Shown here: positions 31,054 through 50,058 of the stretch, piece by piece
Position numbering within the stretch: the stretch's first letter is position 1
Layout: each line of letters opens with the position of its first letter
Assembly (NCBI GenBank): GCA_028821235.1
Contig: JAPPGV010000143.1
Location: 1-53,930 of the forward strand
Direction: 5' to 3'
DNA length: 53,930 nt
Origin: a bacterium
GTDB taxonomy: Bacteria > Actinomycetota > Acidimicrobiia > Spongiisociales > Spongiisociaceae
Position numbers and translations under genes: made by a program
Notes under the pieces: model-generated
Seen by the model: only the letters and a program-made list of their open reading frames with translations
What the model was told of the DNA's origin: nothing
Database searches by the model: none

Positions 31054-32754
31054 ATGAAACCCGACCCGATCACGATCGAGATCCTCCGTAACGCCTTCAT
31101 CATGGCCGCCGAGGAGATGAACGCGGCCTTGATCCGCTCCGCCTACACGCCGGTGATCTACGAGTCGAAGGACTGCGCGGTGGCGCTGATCGACAGCCGG
31201 CACCGGGTCCTGGGCCAGTCGTCAGGAGTCCCGCTGTTCCTGGGCAACCTGGAGGCCTGCACCCTCGCCACCGAGGAGATGTTCGGGCGGTCCGTATGGG
31301 GCCAGGGCGACATCTGGATCATGAACGACGCCTACCTGACCGGCACCCACATGCACGACGTTACGGTCTTCGCCCCCATCTTCTACCAGGGCGACCTGGC
31401 CGGCTTCGCCGCCTCCCGGGCCCACTGGCTGGACATCGGCGCCAAGGACCCGGGAGTGCCGATGGATTCGGTCGAGATCTTCCAGGAGGGGGTCCGCCTG
31501 CCCCCCACCATGGTGGTGAGAAACGGCGAGCCCGTGCAGGACATCTGGGACATCATCGAGGCCAACGTGCGCTTCCCCCGCTCCGCCATCGGCGACATGA
31601 CCGCCCAGTTCGCGGTGGCTTCGATCGGCGAGCACCGCCTGGGAGCCCTCTTCGACCGCTACGGGCGGGACACCGTGGAGGCTGCCGCCGAGGAGATATT
31701 CCGCCAGAGCGAGCAGCTCGACCGCGAAGCCATCCGAGCCATCCCCGACGGCGAGTACACCGCCGAGGGCTTCCTGGACTCCGACGGGGTGGGGGACGAC
31801 CCGGTCCGCATCAAGGTCAGGATCAACGTGGAGGGCGAGCGCCTGCTCTTCGACCTCACCGAGGCCGACGGACCCGGCCAGGGCCCCATCAACTGCGGGG
31901 CCGTGCAGACCCTGTCCGCCTGCCGCTTGGCGTTCAAGTACCTGTTCAACTCCCATCACCCCGTCAACGGAGGCACGTTCCGGCCCCTGGAGGTGAAGAC
32001 CCGGCCCGGATCGATCCTCCATGCCCGGTCCCCGGCCGCCTGCCAGTTCTACTTCACCCCCCTGGGCCTGATGATCGACCTGATCTGCTCGGCCCTCTCC
32101 CCCGCCCTCCCCGACACCGTCCCAGCCGCCCACTACGGCGACGGCATGATCTTCCAGTTCACCGGCATCAACCCCCGCACCGACGAACTCTTCCTCGACA
32201 ACGAACCGCACGTGGGCGGATGGGGCGCCTCCCACGGCCGCGACGGCGAGGACGGCATGATCTGGACCCTGTCCGGCAACTTCCACGACATGCCCATCGA
32301 GGTGTTCGAGTCCAAGTTCCCCGCCCTGATCACCGAGTACGGATACCGCCAGGACTCCGCCGGCCCCGGCCGCTGGCGGGGAGGCAACGGCATCATCCGC
32401 GAGTACCGGATGACCACCGACACCGAGATGAGCCTCTGGTTCGAACGCTCCGGCAACCCCGCCTGGGGCCTCTTCGGCGGCCTGGGCGGAGCACCCCCCG
32501 AAGTCGTCATCAACTCCGGAACCCCCAGAGAAACCCGCCGCCTGAAGACCAACCGCATGCCCCTTCGCGAAGGAGACACCGTCCGCTGCTACACCGGCGG
32601 CGGAGGCGGATACGGCGACCCCTTCGAACGTGATCCCCAAGCCGTCCAAGCCGACTTGGCCGACGGCCACATCTCCCCCGACTATGCCAAGCGCCACCAC
32701 CCGCAGAACTCCCGGGACCGAAGACGGTCGAAAAGAGGTGGGCACCTTCAGTGA
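31054..32754 (+). CDS. hyuB: hydantoinase/oxoprolinase B subunit family protein (second copy)
   Basis: From ATG 31054 the protein has 566 residues: MKPDPITIEILRNAFIMAAE, then GDIWIMNDAYLTGTHMHDVT (family core), ASRAHWLDIGAKDPGVP, YRQDSAGPGRWRGGNGIIREY and the C-terminal VRCYTGGGGGYGDPFERDP. It would pair with a HyuA; the closest in direction is the one behind the oligopeptide transporter. Its stop is inside the GTGA that starts the exported protease gene, an unusual coupling of a cytosolic enzyme with a secreted one. A decayed copy of its C-terminus is found at 53585-53855. Confidence 0.92.
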   Translation: MKPDPITIEILRNAFIMAAEEMNAALIRSAYTPVIYESKDCAVALIDSRHRVLGQSSGVPLFLGNLEACTLATEEMFGRSVWGQGDIWIMNDAYLTGTHMHDVTVFAPIFYQGDLAGFAASRAHWLDIGAKDPGVPMDSVEIFQEGVRLPPTMVVRNGEPVQDIWDIIEANVRFPRSAIGDMTAQFAVASIGEHRLGALFDRYGRDTVEAAAEEIFRQSEQLDREAIRAIPDGEYTAEGFLDSDGVGDDPVRIKVRINVEGERLLFDLTEADGPGQGPINCGAVQTLSACRLAFKYLFNSHHPVNGGTFRPLEVKTRPGSILHARSPAACQFYFTPLGLMIDLICSALSPALPDTVPAAHYGDGMIFQFTGINPRTDELFLDNEPHVGGWGASHGRDGEDGMIWTLSGNFHDMPIEVFESKFPALITEYGYRQDSAGPGRWRGGNGIIREYRMTTDTEMSLWFERSGNPAWGLFGGLGGAPPEVVINSGTPRETRRLKTNRMPLREGDTVRCYTGGGGGYGDPFERDPQAVQADLADGHISPDYAKRHHPQNSRDRRRSKRGGHLQ

Positions 32755-35700
32755 CGGGCAGGCGCGTGCGACTGGGCGGTTCCGCGTCAGTGCGGGCTGT
32801 GTTGGCTGTGGTGCTGGTCTTGCCGATGGTATCGGTGGTTCCGTCACCTTTGTCAGCTCAGACCGATGCCGGGTACGTTGACATCGGGACGGGGGACGCT
32901 CATTACGACAATGTGGTGTTCTTGGCGGCGCGGGGTGTGTTGGAGGGTACGGATTGTGGTGAGGGAAGGTTCTGTCCGGGTGAGGCAATTAGCCGTCGCA
33001 CGTTCGCGGTGTGGCTGGTCCGGGTTCTCGACAACGGGGCGGAGCCGACCCGCCCGGCCGTGTCCCCATTCGCGGATGTCGAGGTTACCGACACTGAGGC
33101 GGGGTTCATCGCTCGGCTGGCCGAATTGGGTGTGACGACCGGTTGTGCGGTAGATCCTCTGAGGTTCTGTCCGGACCAGACCGTCACACGTGGGCAGATG
33201 GCGTCGTTTCTGGTTCGGGCGTTCGACATGCCCCGAGCAGCGCCGGCCGGGTTTGTCGATGTGCCGGCCGGCAATGTACATGCGGGGTCGATCGACCGCC
33301 TCGCCGCGGCCGGTGTCACCGCGGGATGCGCTACCGATCCTGCCCGGTTCTGTCCTGGCGGCAGGACCACCCGGGCGCAGATGGCGTCTTTCCTTGCCCG
33401 GGCGATCAGGTGGGTCGACAGTCAGTCGGCGGGGTTCGACCCATTTGTGACGCCGTCGTTGTCGGGTCTCGACCTGGAACGGTTGGCGGAGGCGGTGGCG
33501 ACGCTGGATCCGAAGGCGGCCTGTCCTGAGGTGGATCTGCCGGCGTCGTACGACGATGTGGTCGAGGTGGCTCGTATTGATAGGGGCTGCGCGTTCGTGG
33601 AATACGTGCCGCTCGACGGCCGCACGGTCGAGGAGGTGCGGGCCGGGTTCGTGTCGGATCCGACGGTGTTCGCGGTGAGTCGGCCGGTGACGCGCCTTGT
33701 ACCGGACACATCACATATTTTCGAGTTTGATGATCCCTCGCTGGAACAGTGGCATCTACCGGAGTTGGCTGCTGACGAACTGTGGAGTGGGTGGCCGTCG
33801 GGAAGCCACGTAAGCGTGGCGGTGATCGACGATGGTGTGGACGGTAAGCACCGTGACCTGAGCAACAACGTGTCGCGTTCAGGCGATCCCTGTCATAGCA
33901 ATCCGTATGGTGACCACGGTACCCATGTGGCAGGAATCGTCGCCGCCGAGCAGGGCAACAGCCACGATGTGGCAGGTGTGGCACCGGACGCCGAGATCCT
34001 TCCGGTAAAGACCTTTTTCGGGGGAACGAAGGATGTTCACTGTGCCAATATCGTTCCTACTTTCACTCAGGCGGTAAACCTGGCCCGGCTTGGCCGTGCT
34101 GATGTGATCAACTTGTCATTCAGCGCGGACCCAGAAGCAGACTATCCGGGCATAGATGCTCCGATAGTGATCACCAAGGTGGCTCAGGCGATCGGCACCG
34201 ATACCCTGCAGTGGGCGATCCGCGTAGCGACCATGCAGAACGTGGTTGTCGTCGCGTCGGGGGGTAACTGCGGCGACAACACTCAATGGACGGACGCGAA
34301 CGGTAATCACGCCTTCGGATGGGAGCACCAAGGTTGTGCAGCGCACAACCAGGATCGGGTCCCAGCTTCGTATCCTGAGGTCATCGCCGTGGCAGCGACG
34401 GACTCCGACCGTAATCGGGCCGCATTCAGCACCTCCAACTCGGATGTCGATATAGCCGCACCGGGTCACAGGATCCTTTCCACCGTCCGCGCCTATACAG
34501 CCGGACCCGACGATCCATGCCCCTCGACTACGACATGCCAGGTACAGGTCGAGTCCGGGACCTCCATGTCGGCGCCCGTGGTCTCCGCGGTGGTCGCTCA
34601 CATGAAGGCCCGATACCCGCAAGCGACTGTAAACCAGATCATGAGCGCTCTGTACACAACCGCCGACGACAAAGGCCAAGGCAGGACCGATGACCTCGGG
34701 CACGGCATCGTGGACCCGGCCGCGGCGATACGAGAACTCCACCGGCTCATAACCGGCGAGAGCCTGCCCGAAACTATTCCCGCGGTCGGCGGTGATCAGG
34801 CCGCGGTCATCCTGGCCGCCGGCGACAGCGCCCAAGGCCAGCCCGGCTGCAGCTCCCCACACTGCCGGAATCTGGACATCACCCTCCAGAACGCCCTCGA
34901 AGGTGACTACACCGTGGCCTGCTGGTCGAGCCGCGACCCCCAGCAACCCTGGCACACAGCCACATGGCACTGGCCGACCTCCACGAACTGGAGTGACGGA
35001 GGATGCTGGTACGGGTATCCAGACGAACAAGTATGGGTAGTCGTCTCCAACGCCCACGGCACGGCCAGGTCCAACACTCTCACCTGGCCAGGCACCACCA
35101 CCGCCACCGTACAGCCCACCACACCGAGGGCCGGAGTTACCGCCGGCGTCATCTCAGCCGGTTGGGTGCACTCATGCGGGGTACGCACCGACGGAACGGT
35201 GGAATGCTGGGGCAACAACGCGGAAGGACAGGCAACCGCACCGGCCGGATCGTTCACCCAAGTCTCCGCCGCTGCGCAGCACTCATGCGGGGTACGCACC
35301 GACGGAACGGTGGAGTGCTGGACCCGCAACGTGCTCGGGCGGGCGACCGCACCGGCCGGATCGTTCACCCAGGTCTCCGCGGCCGTGCAACATTCATGCG
35401 GGCTGCGAACCGACCAATCGGTGGAGTGCTGGGGCAACAACCGGTCCGGGCAGACGACGGCACCGTCCGGATCGTTCACCCAGGTCTCCGCCAACGGCTT
35501 CCATTCATGCGGGCTCCGTACCGACGGAACGGTGGAGTGCTGGGGCAACAACGCGGAAGGGCAGACGGCAGCACCGTCCGGATCGTTCACCCAGGTCTCC
35601 GCCGGTGGACATCACTCGTGCGCGCTACGTACCGACGAAACGGTGGAATGCTGGGGCAACAACCAGCTCGGGCAGGCCACAGCGCCGTCCGGATCGTTCA

Positions 35701-36017
35701 CCCAGGTCTCCGCCGGTCTCACCCATTCGTGCGGGCTGCGCACCGACCGGTCGGTGGAATGCTGGGGCAACAACCAGCTCGGGCAGGCCACAGCGCCGTC
35801 AGGTTCGTTCACCCAGGTCTCCGCCGGTGGACATCATTCGTGCGGGCTGCGTGTGGACGGGTCGGTGGAATGCTGGGGCCGCAACGACGACGGCGAGACC
35901 GATGTGCCCGCCGGTACATTCGGTACCCCGGATGCAGATCGCCCCACGGTCACCTTGACGAAAGGCGATCTCCGGTCGCGCTCTGCAACATGGCTTCCCA
36001 TTCACGCGCCGCCCTGA
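32751..36017 (+). CDS. exported SLH - subtilisin-like protease (S8) - RCC1 repeat protein
   Basis: The 1088-residue product starts at GTG inside GTGA. A signal peptide (VRAVLAVVLVLPMVSVVPSPLSA) is followed by three SLH units (about residues 42-220; GRFCPGEAISRRTFAVWLVR, RFCPDQTVTRGQMASFLVRA, RFCPGGRTTRAQMASFLARA), for attachment to the cell envelope. The S8 domain has its triad in VAVIDDGVDG (Asp360), GDHGTHVAG (His389) and SGTSMSAP (Ser605), with the oxyanion Asn in ASGGNCGD. After a linker with Cys and Trp pairs come seven 37-residue RCC1-type repeats (HSCGLRTDGTVECWGNNAEG), probably a β-propeller. It is likely a surface protease; targets unknown. The 3' end overlaps a convergent gene by 68 bases. 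Confidence 0.9.
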   Translation: MTGRRVRLGGSASVRAVLAVVLVLPMVSVVPSPLSAQTDAGYVDIGTGDAHYDNVVFLAARGVLEGTDCGEGRFCPGEAISRRTFAVWLVRVLDNGAEPTRPAVSPFADVEVTDTEAGFIARLAELGVTTGCAVDPLRFCPDQTVTRGQMASFLVRAFDMPRAAPAGFVDVPAGNVHAGSIDRLAAAGVTAGCATDPARFCPGGRTTRAQMASFLARAIRWVDSQSAGFDPFVTPSLSGLDLERLAEAVATLDPKAACPEVDLPASYDDVVEVARIDRGCAFVEYVPLDGRTVEEVRAGFVSDPTVFAVSRPVTRLVPDTSHIFEFDDPSLEQWHLPELAADELWSGWPSGSHVSVAVIDDGVDGKHRDLSNNVSRSGDPCHSNPYGDHGTHVAGIVAAEQGNSHDVAGVAPDAEILPVKTFFGGTKDVHCANIVPTFTQAVNLARLGRADVINLSFSADPEADYPGIDAPIVITKVAQAIGTDTLQWAIRVATMQNVVVVASGGNCGDNTQWTDANGNHAFGWEHQGCAAHNQDRVPASYPEVIAVAATDSDRNRAAFSTSNSDVDIAAPGHRILSTVRAYTAGPDDPCPSTTTCQVQVESGTSMSAPVVSAVVAHMKARYPQATVNQIMSALYTTADDKGQGRTDDLGHGIVDPAAAIRELHRLITGESLPETIPAVGGDQAAVILAAGDSAQGQPGCSSPHCRNLDITLQNALEGDYTVACWSSRDPQQPWHTATWHWPTSTNWSDGGCWYGYPDEQVWVVVSNAHGTARSNTLTWPGTTTATVQPTTPRAGVTAGVISAGWVHSCGVRTDGTVECWGNNAEGQATAPAGSFTQVSAAAQHSCGVRTDGTVECWTRNVLGRATAPAGSFTQVSAAVQHSCGLRTDQSVECWGNNRSGQTTAPSGSFTQVSANGFHSCGLRTDGTVECWGNNAEGQTAAPSGSFTQVSAGGHHSCALRTDETVECWGNNQLGQATAPSGSFTQVSAGLTHSCGLRTDRSVECWGNNQLGQATAPSGSFTQVSAGGHHSCGLRVDGSVECWGRNDDGETDVPAGTFGTPDADRPTVTLTKGDLRSRSATWLPIHAPP
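35169..35930 (+). repeat. seven tandem 111-base coding repeats (RCC1-like)
   Basis: Units begin at 35169 and recur every 111 bases (37 codons), starting with HSC(G/A)(L/V)R and containing VECWGNN. DNA identity between neighbours is high, so the array may expand or contract by recombination. Confidence 0.9.
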
Positions 36018-42548: not shown

Positions 42549-43511
42549 TCATCTGTCGTCGTCCCCGGACTCCTGGGAGTGGAAGATCCGGGAGAGGAAG
42601 TCGAGGAAACGCTCGCGATCCGCCCAGACCGCCACCCGGGCGTTCTTGGGTTGCGAGGCGAGGAAGGTGTGCGGTCGCTGGTCGACGACCGTGCGGCCCC
42701 GGGTGAGGGTCCCGTGCAGTTCAATCTCGACATTGGCCCGTTCGAACCTCACCAGATCCGGATCGACCAATGCGCCCACGGCCAGCGCATCGTGCACGGG
42801 AGCGCCGCCTCCCTCGACGGGCATCCTCGACTCGTACATGTGGATCCGTTCCGGCAGGAACGCGGCGGCGGTCAGGGCGGCCGGGGTCCCGGCTTCGGCC
42901 CAGCGGGCCACGTCGCCGGAGGTGACGGGGGCCATGTGGGTGGCGTCCAGGGGGAACATCTCGATCGGCGCGCCCGCCCGGAACACGACGTCGGCGGCTT
43001 CGGGATCCCAGTAGATGTTGGCCTCGGCGCTGGCCGAGATGTTGCTGACCGCGATGCCGCCCCCCATGATCGCGATCCGCTCGATGTTCGAGACGATCCC
43101 CGGACGCATCCGGAACGCCAGGGCGAGGTTGGTCAGCGGGCCGACCGCGGCAAGCGTGATCGGAGTCTCCGCGGTCGCCAATGTCTCGACGAGGAAATCG
43201 ACCGCATGCACCGGCTCGGCCGCGATCGACGGCTCCGGCAGGTCCAGATCCTGGGGCCAACCCGCGCTACGGTCGATCTGGCCGATGAGAGGACCGTCGG
43301 CCCCCCGGTACACGGGGACCCCGGAGATGGCGGCGCTCTCGAGGACCTTGAGGGTGTTCAATGTGGTGATCTCGACGGGACAGTTCCCGGCGACCGTGGT
43401 GACCGCGATCAGGTTCAGGTCCGGATGGAGGGCGCCCACCAGCAGCGCTATCGCATCGTCGGAACCCGTGTCGCAATCGATGATCAGATCTTCCGACACT
43501 CGCCCCTCCAC
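42549..43511 (-). CDS. inosine-uridine preferring nucleoside hydrolase family protein
   Basis: The enzyme (320 residues) cleaves the N-glycosidic bond of ribonucleosides. The N-terminal DxDxGxDD calcium/ribose motif is present as IIDCDTGSDDAIAL (Asp12, Asp14, Asp18, Asp19). Further family blocks are NTLKVLESAAISGVPVYRGADGPL, TLAAVGPLTNLALAF, IAIMGGGIAVSNISASAEANIYWDPEAADVVF (the N-x-x-x-D region) and the C-terminal VHDALAVGALVDPDLV with the metal Asp. It is the first gene of its operon and points to nucleoside or nucleoside-like substrates for the transporter. Confidence 0.92.
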   Translation of the reverse strand: MEGRVSEDLIIDCDTGSDDAIALLVGALHPDLNLIAVTTVAGNCPVEITTLNTLKVLESAAISGVPVYRGADGPLIGQIDRSAGWPQDLDLPEPSIAAEPVHAVDFLVETLATAETPITLAAVGPLTNLALAFRMRPGIVSNIERIAIMGGGIAVSNISASAEANIYWDPEAADVVFRAGAPIEMFPLDATHMAPVTSGDVARWAEAGTPAALTAAAFLPERIHMYESRMPVEGGGAPVHDALAVGALVDPDLVRFERANVEIELHGTLTRGRTVVDQRPHTFLASQPKNARVAVWADRERFLDFLSRIFHSQESGDDDR

Positions 43512-43891
43512 CCGACAAATCTCTCCGGGAGGCTATCACCCTCGAGGCCGTCAAGGCCGGTCGAAAAACTGCGCTGTATCGGCCGGTTAAGAACTGCGCG
43601 GTCAGTGGGGTGGTCTCCTTTCGGTTGCCTTGGAGTCGGTAGCTCCGGTCGGTGTTTGATCGGATACGGGGGCTTCTCATCGCCGCCTCCGAACGTGTCA
43701 GCGACCGGGGCCGGACACGGCTGCGTGGCTTCCTCACCGAACCGTATAGTAGTATCAACTATTAAACCCGATGAGGGAAGCGGCTAAGTTGACTGACCAC
43801 CCAAACCGGGCGCAAGCTCTTTGTAGCCCTTTTCCGAAGCGCGGTCCGCGTTCCAGTGGCCGACGCGCTCGCCGGACTCGGACGACTGAGG
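43512..43891. other. intergenic region between divergent genes with two direct repeats
   Basis: A pair of direct repeats lies at 43555-43600: GGCCGGTCGAAAAACTGCGC and, 26 bases on, GGCCGGTTAAGAACTGCGC. An AT-rich run (TATAGTAGTATCAACTATTA, 43744-43763) about 130 bases before the surface-protein gene is a candidate promoter. No convincing gene. Confidence 0.5.
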
Positions 43892-46246
43892 ATGCTGTCC
43901 GCGTTGATTCTCAAGCGATGGGTTGCGGCATCGAGTGTGGTCGCGGTGTTGGCTGTGGGTGCTGTCGCAGCGGCGCAGTCCGGCGACGACTGCTACGCGG
44001 GCCTGGTGGTGGGTCCGGGGGAGAGTTGCACCTACCCAGGCACGACTCAGGAGTTCTCGGTCGATGACGCCGGCTGGGGGCACTTCATCTTCGCCGCCTC
44101 CGGAACGGGTATCGACATGCGCGGCACGACCTTCAACGGAGTCACCTACAACTTCAAGGCCTCCAAGCAAGCCGACGGCACCTGGCTCATCGAGACCGCC
44201 GGCGCGACAACAACCACCAACACAACGGTGGTATCGACCGGGTTCCCGGACGTGGCGCCGGACCACTACGCCTTCGAGGCTGTCGAATGGGCGGTCGAGG
44301 TCGGCGTGACCGCCGGCTACACCGATGGCACGTTCAAACCGCAGCGGCCTCTCATCAAGCGGCACGCGGTCGTGTTCATGGAACGCTTCTACGACGAGAT
44401 CCTTCAAGCCGAGGAGTCAGAGGACTTCACCCGTGCCGACATGATGGTGCTACTCAAAGCCATCAACGACGGCACCATCCGCGGGACCGGGTCCGGCACC
44501 GCAGCCGAGTCGCCTTCACGACAGGGAGCGAGCCGGCGTTTCTCAGACGTGGCGCCGGACCACTACGCCTTCGAGGCTGTCGAATGGGCGGTCGAGGTCG
44601 GCGTGACCGCCGGCTACACCGATGGCACGTTCAAACCGCAGCGGCCTCTCATCAAGCGGCACGCGGTCGTGTTCATGGAACGCTTCTACGACGAGATCCT
44701 TCAAGCCGAGGAGTCAGAGGACTTCACCCGTGCCGACATGATGGTGCTGCTCAAAGCCATCAACGACGGCACCCTGACCGCTGCCCGGCAAGCGCCCGGG
44801 TCCGACGCAATGTTCCCGGGTTCGCCGGAGTCGGATAGAGCCGCGCTTGTTGCGTTGTATCACGCCACCGACGGACCCAACTGGCACGTCAACGACAACT
44901 GGCTTACAGACGAACCCTTGGGGAATTGGTACGGAGTCACCACTGACCACACCGGCCGAGTCGTTCGACTGGTACAACATTACAATGGTCTCGCGGGCGA
45001 ACTGCCACCTCAACTTGGTGACCTGGACGCTGTCGAGACGGTTGAGTTGAACGGCATCGATAGCAATAACCTCGACCTATCACCGCTGTCAGGTCTAGCA
45101 CGGCTGCGTCACCTTACGCTGTTCAGTTCTCAGGTTTCTGACCTTTCAGGACTGACGGACCTACCTCAACTCGAGACCCTTCAGCTTTCTGATAACGAGA
45201 TCCATGATCTATCGCCGATTCTACGTCTCCACAGCTTGCGGACTCTGAATGTGGCGGAGAACCCTCTCAGTCGTCGGTCCGTCCACACACTCATTCCGAT
45301 TCTCGAAGCCAGGGGTGTCCAAGTTTATCATCACGGCTACGCCCTTGGCGACGGCGATTTGACCGTTGAAGATGGCCCATTGATTTACAACGACAATCTG
45401 GTTGTATTGCCGGTAGCAAAAGGTTCAGGACTCCTGGCCTACACGTCGACCTTCTACCGCCATTTCGAAGATGACTTTGACTTTCTGGTGATTGTGAATA
45501 TTGATGGTGAGTCTGAGATAGGTGCCGGTGGGTATTATATCCCCGTAGCCAATGATATACAGGGGATTGGGCAAGCGCTATACTCGTATAGCAACGAATT
45601 TGGATCAGCCGGGAAACTCCACGGAGTCCCATACTTCAGTGAACCCTGGTGGTTTCGGGGTATCATTCTGCACGAGGTGATGCATAGGTGGGCTGCCTAC
45701 GGCCACCATCCCCTCGCGCACGGTTCACACTTTGCTGACTTCAGCAACATCTTCGGGGCGTTTGGTGGAGAGTTCTCTTCTTCTTTCGACCAGATCGTCG
45801 ATCTCGGAGATGGCCAGTTCCGTGCCGACAAACAGGAATGGTCTTACACGTATGGCCCACTAGAGCTCTACTTCGCAGGTCTCATTCCTTCAGAAGAGGT
45901 ACCTGACTTTTGGGTCGCCGTTGATGGAGCGTGGGTCGATCAAGAATCTGGGGTGTTCTCTGCAACCCGGATAGAGCCGTTCACCGTAACCGATGTCATC
46001 GCTGCATACGGGCGACGGGTTCCTCATGTGTCCAGCTCCCAACGTGAGTTCAGGGCCGCAGTGATTCTGCTGTTGGATGAGCAGAATCCGACAGTGGATT
46101 CGAAGCTGCTCGAGAGCTTGAGTAGCGACATAGCTTGGTTCAGCTTCATCGGTGCGGATGAGTCCTCCGAAGAGAACTTCTTCGAAGCGACCGGGGGTCG
46201 GGCTACTTTCAGAACCGATGGCCTGGCGCAGACGCTCAACAACTAG
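43892..46246 (+). CDS. exported SLH - LRR - HExxH metallopeptidase-like surface protein
   Basis: The start is set at ATG 43892, giving 784 residues and a clean signal peptide (LKRWVAASSVVAVLAVGAVA). About residues 120-195 and 219-294 are two almost identical SLH domains (DVAPDHYAFEAVEWAVEVGV, encoded by a 228-base duplication). Residues about 310-470 are leucine-rich repeats with the cap YHATDGPNWHVNDNW and units such as LPQLETLQLSDNEIHDL. From about 480 comes a domain I do not recognise that contains HEVMHRW (His594, Glu595, His598), a zinc-peptidase type motif. G+C drops sharply in this last part (25 of 60 bases at 45481-45540, against 39 of 60 at 44281-44340). Probably a surface enzyme assembled from parts of different origin. 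Confidence 0.85.
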   Translation: MLSALILKRWVAASSVVAVLAVGAVAAAQSGDDCYAGLVVGPGESCTYPGTTQEFSVDDAGWGHFIFAASGTGIDMRGTTFNGVTYNFKASKQADGTWLIETAGATTTTNTTVVSTGFPDVAPDHYAFEAVEWAVEVGVTAGYTDGTFKPQRPLIKRHAVVFMERFYDEILQAEESEDFTRADMMVLLKAINDGTIRGTGSGTAAESPSRQGASRRFSDVAPDHYAFEAVEWAVEVGVTAGYTDGTFKPQRPLIKRHAVVFMERFYDEILQAEESEDFTRADMMVLLKAINDGTLTAARQAPGSDAMFPGSPESDRAALVALYHATDGPNWHVNDNWLTDEPLGNWYGVTTDHTGRVVRLVQHYNGLAGELPPQLGDLDAVETVELNGIDSNNLDLSPLSGLARLRHLTLFSSQVSDLSGLTDLPQLETLQLSDNEIHDLSPILRLHSLRTLNVAENPLSRRSVHTLIPILEARGVQVYHHGYALGDGDLTVEDGPLIYNDNLVVLPVAKGSGLLAYTSTFYRHFEDDFDFLVIVNIDGESEIGAGGYYIPVANDIQGIGQALYSYSNEFGSAGKLHGVPYFSEPWWFRGIILHEVMHRWAAYGHHPLAHGSHFADFSNIFGAFGGEFSSSFDQIVDLGDGQFRADKQEWSYTYGPLELYFAGLIPSEEVPDFWVAVDGAWVDQESGVFSATRIEPFTVTDVIAAYGRRVPHVSSSQREFRAAVILLLDEQNPTVDSKLLESLSSDIAWFSFIGADESSEENFFEATGGRATFRTDGLAQTLNN
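44249..44773 (+). repeat. 228-base direct duplication encoding an SLH domain
   Basis: 44249-44476 and 44546-44773 agree at every position I compared except one third-codon base (GTGCTA versus GTGCTG). The 297-base spacing includes a non-repeated 69-base linker. Confidence 0.9.
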
Positions 46247-46409
46247 ATCGCTGAGCCTCACCGGGTATTGCGCAGGCTGTGGTGCGCCCCTGGGTGTCAC
46301 ACGGTGGGGATAGTTGGCCGTCAAGTATGAGTGTTTTCGCGTTCTCGGCGTCCCAGGCTTCCCGCTGCGGTGTTCAGTCCGTTCCGGGTATCGGCAACGA
46401 GTCCGGGAG

Positions 46410-48140
46410 TCAGTCCCTGGGTTCGTTCGCCGTAACGTCGGCCCCGCTCTCCGCCAGGCGGGCGACGAGTCCCTTCCGACCACCGGTGGAATCGAACCGC
46501 TCCCACGCCTGGGCGAAGTCGGCCCGGCGCATCGCAGCCTGACGGTTCTGGCCGCCGATCAACTGGCCCAATGCGATGAGCTGGCCTCGGTTGCTGCTGC
46601 GCATGGGTAAGCCTTCGGCGTAGCGGCGAAGGAACTGGCCGGCAACGCATGCGTCCTGGAACTCGCCCAGCACATCCTGAAGTTTCTTCAGCCGCCTGGT
46701 CTCCGCCTTCAGCAACCCGCCATAGGCCGGCCGGAAGAACTCGAGGAGGTAACGCAGCTGCTTGCATCGAATCCTCAGCGCATGCAGCGACTCGTCCCTG
46801 GACGCGGACGTGATCGCACGACCACGGCGCACCACACCCCGGTAGCGCTTACCGATGAGCAGCTGCGCGCCGTCGCCGACCGTGACCGAACCCAAGGCCT
46901 CCATGGTGCGCGCGGACGGACCCCGTTCGAGCGATTGCGCAAAGTCCGCCTTCAGACGCCCGTACCTCCGGCTGGTCAGGCAGGTCAGCAAACGCCTTCG
47001 CTCCTCCTGCCACCGGTCGGCGAGATACTGCTGGTAGTCGTCCAGGTGCGCAGCATCCTCCGGGGCAATCTCGGACAGGAAGCCCGGGAGGTTCCCCATG
47101 GCGACGTCGAGGTCCCGCACACCGCCGAGCGTGGCCGCGAGCCATTTGAACTCGCCGTTGAACGAGCGGATCGAGGCGGGCAGCACCTTCTTGAAAGCGC
47201 GCAGCGCGGAACGGAGGCGGCGCGTCGCCACCCGCATCTTGTGCACGCCTTCGGGGTCCAGACCCTCCCAGGCCCTGGGCTCCTGGGCGATCATCTCCTC
47301 GAACTGCTCGAGCAAGCGGCCGTAAGCCAGGTGGATGGCCGGATCGGACGGCGCGGGCTTCCGTTCCCGCAACGCCAGAACGAACTGGGTGCTCGCCAGC
47401 AACACCGTTCCCGGAGCCCGCGGGGGCGACAGGCCCGCGGTCTGCAGTCCCCGTTCGAACTTGCTGAGGCGGGCGGCCAGAAGGCCGAACCGTTGTTGCG
47501 TTTCCGCGGCCAGTTGCCGTAGCGACTCCTCCCCACCCTCCTTCAGCTCGATCTCCAGTTCCACGAACGCCATGCGGCCCGGCGCCGGCTTCTTGACCGG
47601 GCCGTCGGTGGTGATGGTCGTCCGGTCGATCCCCAGTTCCACCAGCGCACCATCGGGCAGCCGGATGTCGAACAGGCGACGGTGCGTCCGAACGCGGAAG
47701 AGCTTCCGCAGGTCCCCCGACCGGAGACCGCCGGACCGGTCGGCGACATGCTCGGCAACCAGAGGGTGGCTGCCGTCCTGCGGAAAGGCCGTGACCCGGC
47801 GCTCGACCTCCTCGCGCTTCTGCACGATCCCGTCCCGCAGCTTGTTGGACTTCAGGGTCATGCTCTTGTCGCCCGAGCGGTCGCGCCACCGGTACGCCCA
47901 CCCCGCCCTGAACAGATGCCAACCGGGAGTGTCCCAGTAGTCATCCACGATGTCCACGGTCAAGGCGGACTGCACGTCGTACGAGTCGAGAGAGTCGATC
48001 AGATCCTCAACGTGCGCGGCGTCTTCGATCAGGAACTTCGCTTCGATCTCCGAGTGAGCCGCCTCGAGCGGAGAAGGCGCGTCCTCCTCGGGCGTGCCGT
48101 CTCCCGGTGGTTCCGGGACTGATCCCAGCCGTGAGACCAT
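46410..48140 (-). CDS. CYTH-CHAD domain protein
   Basis: The 576-residue product is read from ATG 48140 behind ACAGGAGACC; an upstream ATG at 48176 has no such site. The N-terminal CYTH domain (about 30-230) has the EIEAKFLI (ExExK) signature, followed by YWDTPGWHLFRAGWAYRWRD and VELEIELKEG. Such domains are triphosphatases. The C-terminal CHAD domain (about 270-560) is rich in His/Arg/Lys helices, for example GVHKMRVATRRLRSALRAFKKVL and LHALRIRCKQLRYLLEFFRP, and binds polyphosphate. This is the YgiF-like arrangement. It is divergently transcribed from the sugar receptor gene. Confidence 0.92.
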   Translation of the reverse strand: MVSRLGSVPEPPGDGTPEEDAPSPLEAAHSEIEAKFLIEDAAHVEDLIDSLDSYDVQSALTVDIVDDYWDTPGWHLFRAGWAYRWRDRSGDKSMTLKSNKLRDGIVQKREEVERRVTAFPQDGSHPLVAEHVADRSGGLRSGDLRKLFRVRTHRRLFDIRLPDGALVELGIDRTTITTDGPVKKPAPGRMAFVELEIELKEGGEESLRQLAAETQQRFGLLAARLSKFERGLQTAGLSPPRAPGTVLLASTQFVLALRERKPAPSDPAIHLAYGRLLEQFEEMIAQEPRAWEGLDPEGVHKMRVATRRLRSALRAFKKVLPASIRSFNGEFKWLAATLGGVRDLDVAMGNLPGFLSEIAPEDAAHLDDYQQYLADRWQEERRRLLTCLTSRRYGRLKADFAQSLERGPSARTMEALGSVTVGDGAQLLIGKRYRGVVRRGRAITSASRDESLHALRIRCKQLRYLLEFFRPAYGGLLKAETRRLKKLQDVLGEFQDACVAGQFLRRYAEGLPMRSSNRGQLIALGQLIGGQNRQAAMRRADFAQAWERFDSTGGRKGLVARLAESGADVTANEPRD

Positions 48141-48618
48141 GGTGTGGTCTCCTGTTTCGACACGTACCTGGTTCAAGATCCAGGGGCATACAGCTTACTT
48201 TGACCGCGTATTCAGCGCTGAACAGAGGGCCCATCCGGCCGCGAAACGTGGGTTGGCGTGTAATGCCGACAACGACGGTCCGGAGCCGATTGCCTCCACC
48301 TAAACCCACGCAGCCGGATCCCCATGTATGGCCATGATCCGCCCAGCACATCCGGAATGCTAAGAAAACCAGTGGACGCCGATCTCGGGCCAGGGTTAGG
48401 GTTGACCCATCCTTGATCGAGAGATGATGGCAGGCATCCCAGCCGATCCGACGGGAAGCTGCGTTCCCCGAGCACTCCCACGCGGGATCGCTCCCGAAGC
48501 CGTTCGCAACGTTCTCGTCGGGCTCCTCGATCCGCTATCACGCTCGATAGGAGGTATTGCCAGGTAGTGACGGTCCGCGCCAGGCGGACAGGCACGAATC
48601 AAGGGAGGGCCCAGGGCC
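48141..48618. other. gap between divergent genes
   Basis: No gene supported; open frames here give Arg/Pro-rich products. A GATAGGAGGT at 48548-48557 looks like a ribosome site, but only ATG 48619 behind AAGGGAGGGCCC starts a recognisable protein. Confidence 0.4.
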
Positions 48619-50058
48619 ATGTGGAGCAAGAGCAAATGGAGAGCCGCCGCGTTCGCGGCATTGACGCTAGCGCTGGTCATGTCAGCGTGCGGAGCAGAGG
48701 AGGAACCCGCTCCGGAGGAACCCGAAGCAGCCGCGGTCACCACCGCCGCGCCCGAGCCTGCTCCCGAACCCGCTCCCGAGGAACCCGAAGAAGCCGCGGT
48801 CACCACCGCCGCGCCCGAGGCCGCTCCTGCGGAGGACCCCGACGCCTGTGACGAGATCATCACGCTCCGGTTGCTCCGCTGGCAGGGAGACACGCTCGAC
48901 ATCGCCATCGCCGACTACAAGGAAGTGGAACCCTGCGTCGAGATCGCGGTCGAGGAAGTGCCGTTCGGCCAGCTGTACGAGAAGATCAGCATCGTGGCGA
49001 CGTCGGACGATCCCCCCGACATCCTCCTCTACGACGGGCCGTTCACCCAGTCCTACGCGGAGGCCGGGATGCTGCTGCCCCTCGACGACTACATCAGCGA
49101 CGAGCACCTGAACGACATCCTCTTCGCCACCCGGTCCGAGCACAGCTACCAGGGCGTGCTGTACTCGCCCGGGCTGGAGCAGTCGGCCATGGCCCTCTTC
49201 TACAACAAGGACATGACCGACGCCGCGGGCATCAACCCGCCGCAGGACATCTCGGAGGCCTGGACGTGGGAGGAGGCCGTGGCGGCCTTCCAGAAGATCC
49301 AGGATGAGGGGATCGCGGAGTGGGGCCTGGCCCCGTCGGCCTTCGGCGACGGCACGCCCGGCTTCGCCTACCGGGACCTCATCATGACGAGGTCGATGGG
49401 CGATCCGAATGCTGCCATGGACTCGTCCGCCTACCGCACCTTCTGGGCCATATCCGACGACGGATGCACGGTGGACGGGTACCTGAACACGCCTGAGGCG
49501 ATCGAAGGGCTCGAGTTCTACGCCAAGATGTTCAACGAGTGGGAGATCACGCCGAAGGTCGGGATCCCGAACGCCCTCCTCGACGGGACCGCGGCGTTCG
49601 GCCTGGAGCCCCCCTTCGTGGCGGGAGTCCTGGAGGCCAACGCCGACTTCGAGTGGGGGATCACGCCGGTGCCCTACTTCAACACGCCGTTCACCCATAC
49701 GGGTAGCGTCACGGTCGGCGTCAGCGCCAAGACGAAGTACCCCGACGAGGCCGCCGCGTTCGTGATGTTCGCCACCAACCCGGAGCAGTCCAAGAAGTAC
49801 TCGGACAACTACCAGTCCCTGCCGGTCCGCCAGTCCATCCTGGATCTGCAGACGTTCTTCGAGGTGTACCCGCAGAGCATCTTCGCCGAGTCGCTCGCAG
49901 TGGCCGGGCAACCGCGGCCCCCGACTCCGGCGTTCACCCAGTACGAGCAGATCGTGACCACCGCCCTCGGTGACATCGCCCTCGGCGCCGACGCGCAGGA
50001 GACCATGGATTCGGCCGTGGCCCAACTGGACCCGATCCTGGCCCGCTACTGCGGCTAG
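48619..50058 (+). CDS. sugar-type ABC transporter substrate-binding lipoprotein (SBP_bac_1)
   Basis: The 479-residue receptor has a signal peptide and lipobox ALVMSAC (Cys24 by my count). A 50-residue Pro/Glu/Ala/Thr linker then repeats EEPE-A-AAVTTAAPE twice. The binding domain starts near ITLRLLRWQGDTLDIAIADYKEVEP and contains DPPDILLYDGPFTQSYAEAGMLLPLDDYI, ALFYNKDMTDAAGI and GVSAKTKYPDEAAAFVMFA, as in UgpB/MalE relatives. It is the probable receptor of the MalF/MalG-type permeases at 40718-42509, although it is 6 kb away on the opposite strand. Confidence 0.9.
   Translation: MWSKSKWRAAAFAALTLALVMSACGAEEEPAPEEPEAAAVTTAAPEPAPEPAPEEPEEAAVTTAAPEAAPAEDPDACDEIITLRLLRWQGDTLDIAIADYKEVEPCVEIAVEEVPFGQLYEKISIVATSDDPPDILLYDGPFTQSYAEAGMLLPLDDYISDEHLNDILFATRSEHSYQGVLYSPGLEQSAMALFYNKDMTDAAGINPPQDISEAWTWEEAVAAFQKIQDEGIAEWGLAPSAFGDGTPGFAYRDLIMTRSMGDPNAAMDSSAYRTFWAISDDGCTVDGYLNTPEAIEGLEFYAKMFNEWEITPKVGIPNALLDGTAAFGLEPPFVAGVLEANADFEWGITPVPYFNTPFTHTGSVTVGVSAKTKYPDEAAAFVMFATNPEQSKKYSDNYQSLPVRQSILDLQTFFEVYPQSIFAESLAVAGQPRPPTPAFTQYEQIVTTALGDIALGADAQETMDSAVAQLDPILARYCG

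Follow-up and report, generated by a model that had tools for sequence, protein, structure and literature searches.

What does the surface protein encoded at 43892-46246 (+) do, and how did a gene whose two parts differ in base composition come to lie in this genome? The window, meaning the whole 53,930-nucleotide stretch that was analysed, carries it as a single open reading frame of 784 codons. With a probability of roughly 0.6, the product is a secreted, wall-tethered metallopeptidase guided by leucine-rich repeats (LRRs), in which an LRR-HExxH module has been joined to an SLH anchor and, alongside a CYTH-CHAD gene, brought in on a 4.8-kb segment.

The protein consists of several parts, assigned from the reading frame and Pfam: a signal peptide, an N-terminal domain, two SLH units, LRRs and an HExxH domain. 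Translation from the ATG yields a signal-peptide-like N-terminus, and an in-frame GTG is located 12 codons upstream. Residues 1-115 (43892-44236, +) comprise the signal peptide, read from the sequence and ending near AAAQS, and a small N-terminal domain, which over residues 29-103 shares 36% identity with a congener's SLH protein (L028). The SLH units at 44249-44476 and 44546-44773 (both +) are detected by Pfam (PF00395, 3e-21; 75.6 bits, where the cut-off is 20.8; two stretches) and by repeat comparison. The copies are 228 bp long with a period of 297, and their sole difference is A/G at 44452, a synonymous CTA/CTG change; another comparison gives the duplication as 234 bp at 99%. The sequence-only reading had named the duplicated SLH with its one difference, the LRRs and a C-terminal HEVMHRW domain, and all of these were recovered. 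It had also called the duplication very young; a recent event is plausible, but gene conversion could equally keep the copies alike.

In the proposed mechanism, the signal peptide would direct export and the two SLH units would tether the protein to a cell-wall polymer, presumably pyruvylated. The genome contains one PF04230 gene (82.9 bits), a candidate for a CsaB-like role; PF04230 is the family of pyruvyl transferases on which SLH anchoring draws in Bacillus. In Bacillus S-layer proteins, three SLH motifs are usual for tight binding; the window protein has only two. The SLH unit with its FTRADMM motif is also found in small congener proteins (47% identity in L026, 39% in L025).

The base composition changes directly behind the second SLH unit. 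G+C at fourfold sites (GC4) is 0.79 for residues 1-308, 0.63 for residues 309-370, 0.50 for residues 371-487 and 0.59 for residues 488-784, against an average of 0.84 in the other genes of the window, which served as the comparison set. Relative to these genes, the deficit has p values of 3e-11 (residues 371-487) and 5e-13 (residues 488-784). The best single change point is residue 319 (range 297-358), with 0.80 before and 0.56 after, at about 41% of the gene; the earlier description of a host-like first 40% followed by a remainder of lower G+C is borne out. The low segment begins with residues 309-487 (44816-45352, +), an LRR cap followed by leucine-rich repeats, delimited by Pfam and composition, with an LRR_4 match of 7e-9 at residues 425-459. 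Since an LRR cap encoded elsewhere in this genome, in the protein L002, has a GC4 of 0.85, LRR content alone is not the cause of the drop. That protein (40-2361) is D-Ala-D-Ala carboxypeptidase-like, followed by the LRR cap and by SLH-like repeats read from the sequence, and is a second LRR and SLH protein of this genome.

The C-terminal domain (residues 488-784; 45353-46243, +) belongs to a real and widespread family, which we read as putative zinc peptidases of an unnamed kind. Its 25 aligned members come from several phyla, many of them 25-50% identical to the window domain. In the alignment, the HEVMHRW motif (residues 594-600; 45671-45691, +) supplies the putative zinc and catalytic residues H594 (24 of 25 members), E595 and H598 (both 25/25), followed by an invariant W600 (25/25). 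Y660 is likewise present in 25/25, and D527 and D530 in 24/24. Behind HExxH there is no invariant Glu; the invariant residue of ligand type is H613 (25/25; 45728-45730, +), proposed, as a guess based on its conservation, to be the third zinc ligand. Its distance from the second His of the motif varies among members, and the window reads HF at H613 where 23/25 read HW. H594, H598 and probably H613 would bind zinc, with E595 as the general base, while the LRRs would capture a protein (or glycan) target and the HExxH domain would cut that target or its neighbour. In L016 (583-2607; G303, same phylum), QEQGHRW replaces HExxH; this is a possible inactive relative, and some family members may thus be inactive.

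Pfam and NCBIfam detect only SLH and LRR in this protein and miss the catalytic-looking domain. Residues 488-784 have no Pfam match, and the domain, queried alone or in sets of 8 or 24 members, yielded only chance-level matches in Pfam, NCBIfam and PHROGs; PDB sequences searched with the domain by sequence and by profile gave no match. A scan of 84,980 species, with one genome per species, found seven relatives; they belong to Pseudomonadota, Bacteroidota, Nitrospirota, Acidobacteriota and a MAG titled Gemmatimonadota. Pairwise matches of the window domain to its relatives are of the 4e-47 type. Within its own phylum, 2 of 396 genomes contain the domain (one being the window's own); the figures are 2 of 398 for Pseudomonadota, 5 of 326 (one weak) for the phylum of Cellulophaga and 10 of 64 for that of the RHO2 MAG. 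With a larger profile, 8/395 genomes of its own class match at E<=1e-3, the own genome included and several marginal; the window scores 350 bits against the family profile, in which it is itself included. None of the 14 other genomes of the taxonomic family contains the domain. Two 1-Mb genomes of the same class encode large proteins (L104, L105) with HEFEHS or HEFQHS and weak family-profile matches, perhaps a remote branch.

The AlphaFold model of the domain (pLDDT 77.7, pTM 0.81) places HEVMH (model residues 107-111) inside a 17-residue helix, 98-114, which follows one helix and three strands. Zincin peptidases typically carry HExxH in a helix that follows a strand layer. A second family member was modelled with a pLDDT of 67.4, and Foldseek searches of the two models against the PDB returned nothing at E<=0.001 (best E 0.84 and 3.3), nor did a search against viral models. 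The list from VIA-align was topped by tyrosine phosphatases with a best Z of 4.0, which was not accepted as kinship. The proposal of a metallopeptidase is supported by the conservation of the motif, which is also predicted to lie in a helix after three strands, but comparison with solved structures provides no matching fold.

In comparison with known systems, the protein resembles internalin-type LRR surface proteins in its signal peptide, its SDLSGLTDLPQLETLQLSDNEI-type LRRs and its surface anchoring, and internalin models match weakly over the window LRRs. It differs in that the anchor is SLH and not LPXTG or GW, and in the added HExxH domain. The internalin scores, 31-41 bits against cut-offs of 1050-1600, lie far below threshold, and this identity was rejected. 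As in the SLH-anchored surface enzymes of Gram-positive bacteria, SLH would tether an extracellular catalytic part; unlike in those, there are two N-terminal SLH motifs, one per unit, and the catalytic-looking domain belongs to an unnamed family. The x-W after HExxH is shared with M1-like HExxHxW peptidases. Peptidase M1 has an invariant Glu ligand about 18 residues beyond the motif; in the window family the downstream candidate is a His at variable spacing and not a Glu, and M1 identity was rejected for lack of that Glu and of a Pfam M1 match.

The protein is likened to an LRR-guided surface enzyme, a comparison drawn from its families, and two other functions have to be weighed. In one, it is a surface LRR adhesin whose HExxH domain does not cut or holds metal for structure alone, its job being attachment. 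LRR and SLH by themselves suffice for an adhesin, one family member lacks the first His (QEQGH), and the window domain has a long branch (1.23) and the HF variant at H613. However, the window domain retains H594, E595, H598, W600 and H613, and relatives that consist of the domain alone, free of LRRs (L010, L063), indicate that it has a use of its own; attachment as the only function is unlikely. In the other, the domain is a metal-dependent enzyme but not a peptidase, acting for instance on glycan under LRR guidance. The lack of a matching solved zincin and of any family annotation would suit this, but an HExxH helix behind a strand layer is a trait of zincin peptidases, and we consider it distinctly unlikely.

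The combination of LRRs and HExxH domain is not confined to the window. LRRs (at least three repeats by a simple LRR pattern) precede the domain in 12 of the 19 distinct members that have at least 150 upstream residues, the window included; the count leaves out the partial L066 and the very large L012, where three pattern hits over 1656 residues could be accidental. On this basis, the pair is an existing module that predates the window gene. In the pseudomonadotal L007 (COS1_bin_8) and L008, and in most members of the phylum of G412 (RHO2_bin_15 and others), the LRRs lie directly upstream of the domain, which is 42-51% identical to that of the window and is reached through the same linker, roughly NPLS..S...H.PALE.RGV.V followed by IYNDNVFVLPV. 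These proteins differ from the window protein in that no SLH is seen and the N-terminal parts are others (dockerin, CARDB); many end in a conserved SFGTPPPPIVCH tail, which the window protein lacks. Several genomes of the phylum of G412 carry two or three LRR-HExxH genes (L068-L082), many with the SFGTPPPPIVCH tail. L101, a remote member in a small-genome class-mate, has apparent repeats ahead of the domain by eye, and L011 combines the domain with Kelch and FG-GAP repeats. L007, L010 and L101 have lipoprotein-like N-termini, read from the sequence, and look exported.

DNA alignment shows that a 4.83-kb segment (43540-48373) is missing from the same place in six congeners, which have about 170-250 bp of other spacer instead. 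Similarity to the congeners ends at 43539, or at 43556 for one of them, and begins again at 48373-48375, so that the six agree within about 20 bases. To the left is a nucleoside hydrolase gene (42549-43511, -), 88-92% identical in congeners; to the right is a gene named from its sequence as the solute-binding protein of a sugar-type ABC transporter (48619-50058, +), 82-92% identical over the aligned part. The two are direct neighbours in the six congeners. Within 90-100 bases of the insert ends there is no shared 7-mer direct or inverted repeat, and neither of the insert's two genes is a transposase. Viral contigs and plasmids hold no relative of the C-terminal domain, so no carrier was found. 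The second gene of the insert, encoding CYTH-CHAD (46410-48176, -), lies tail to tail with the SLH-LRR-HExxH gene, and the congeners have their copies elsewhere, after a phosphodiesterase gene where they can be placed (L057, L059). The insert copy has 84.6-86.3% DNA identity to six other copies of the genus; these share 88.3-93.7% with one another. A second CYTH-CHAD of the own genome (L060; G000:C62:807-2549) adjoins a stretch that has 79% identity to a portion of the phosphodiesterase gene and is either a rearranged copy or contamination.

How the segment arose is best judged against two alternatives. Vertical inheritance, with loss in the congeners and a low G+C from relaxed selection, would be compatible with the thin presence of members across the class and phylum. 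Against it, the window domain is closer to members of other phyla (up to 51% identity) than to the same-phylum L016 (about 31%), the composition break coincides with a domain boundary, the empty site is common to six congeners and the CHAD copy lies beyond their range; we regard it as very unlikely. A chimeric contig that fused two genes is a concern in a draft of 162 contigs with 4.99% estimated contamination. However, a single open frame crosses the join at a domain border, both flanks are syntenic with congeners and the segment ends in a CHAD gene of the genus type, which makes an artefact extremely improbable.

The preferred reading remains transfer of a composite gene. The composition break at the SLH/LRR boundary, the congener homologues of the SLH and N-terminal domains, the module in other phyla and the empty site support the earlier proposal that a foreign LRR-peptidase module was joined to a local anchor. 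As a correction, a fusion within this genome is not required: the insert's CYTH-CHAD lies beyond the range of the congeners' copies, so that a related lineage may have supplied the finished gene whole. These data fit a scenario in which the entire segment came from a relative beyond the sampled genus, the fusion having been made before; an old duplicate is also possible. The search for donors of the LRR-HExxH part yielded relatives in other phyla but no donor. With a best identity of 51% and its long branch, the module is either old or derived from a donor that has not been sampled; the idea that a sampled donor passed it on recently was dropped. The sequence of events would then be that a module scattered over distant phyla was joined to the SLH anchor of this bacterial group, and that the fused gene reached this genome on the segment.

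Sponge symbionts are enriched in leucine-rich and other eukaryote-like repeats, which are thought to target the host, and such repeats are scarce in the Actinobacteriota of sponges in one survey (PMC8163846). This survey of sponge MAGs sampled Coscinoderma and Rhopaloeides (PMC8163846), and the record names COS1 and RHO2 of two close relatives would fit an origin there. Tentatively, this undescribed family of putative secreted zinc peptidases, mostly coupled to LRRs, may move among distant, partly sponge-associated bacteria and be fitted to local anchors (SLH in the window, lipoprotein or dockerin elsewhere), so that a community would share one target-guided protease. A repeat protein with a built-in enzyme is open to direct assay, and a module common to several phyla offers a testable case of domain transfer. 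About 8 kb away in the window, at 32751-36014 (+), an S8 subtilase fused to RCC1 repeats (Pfam 2e-42 and 3e-52; GC4 0.74) is a second protease with eukaryote-like repeats.
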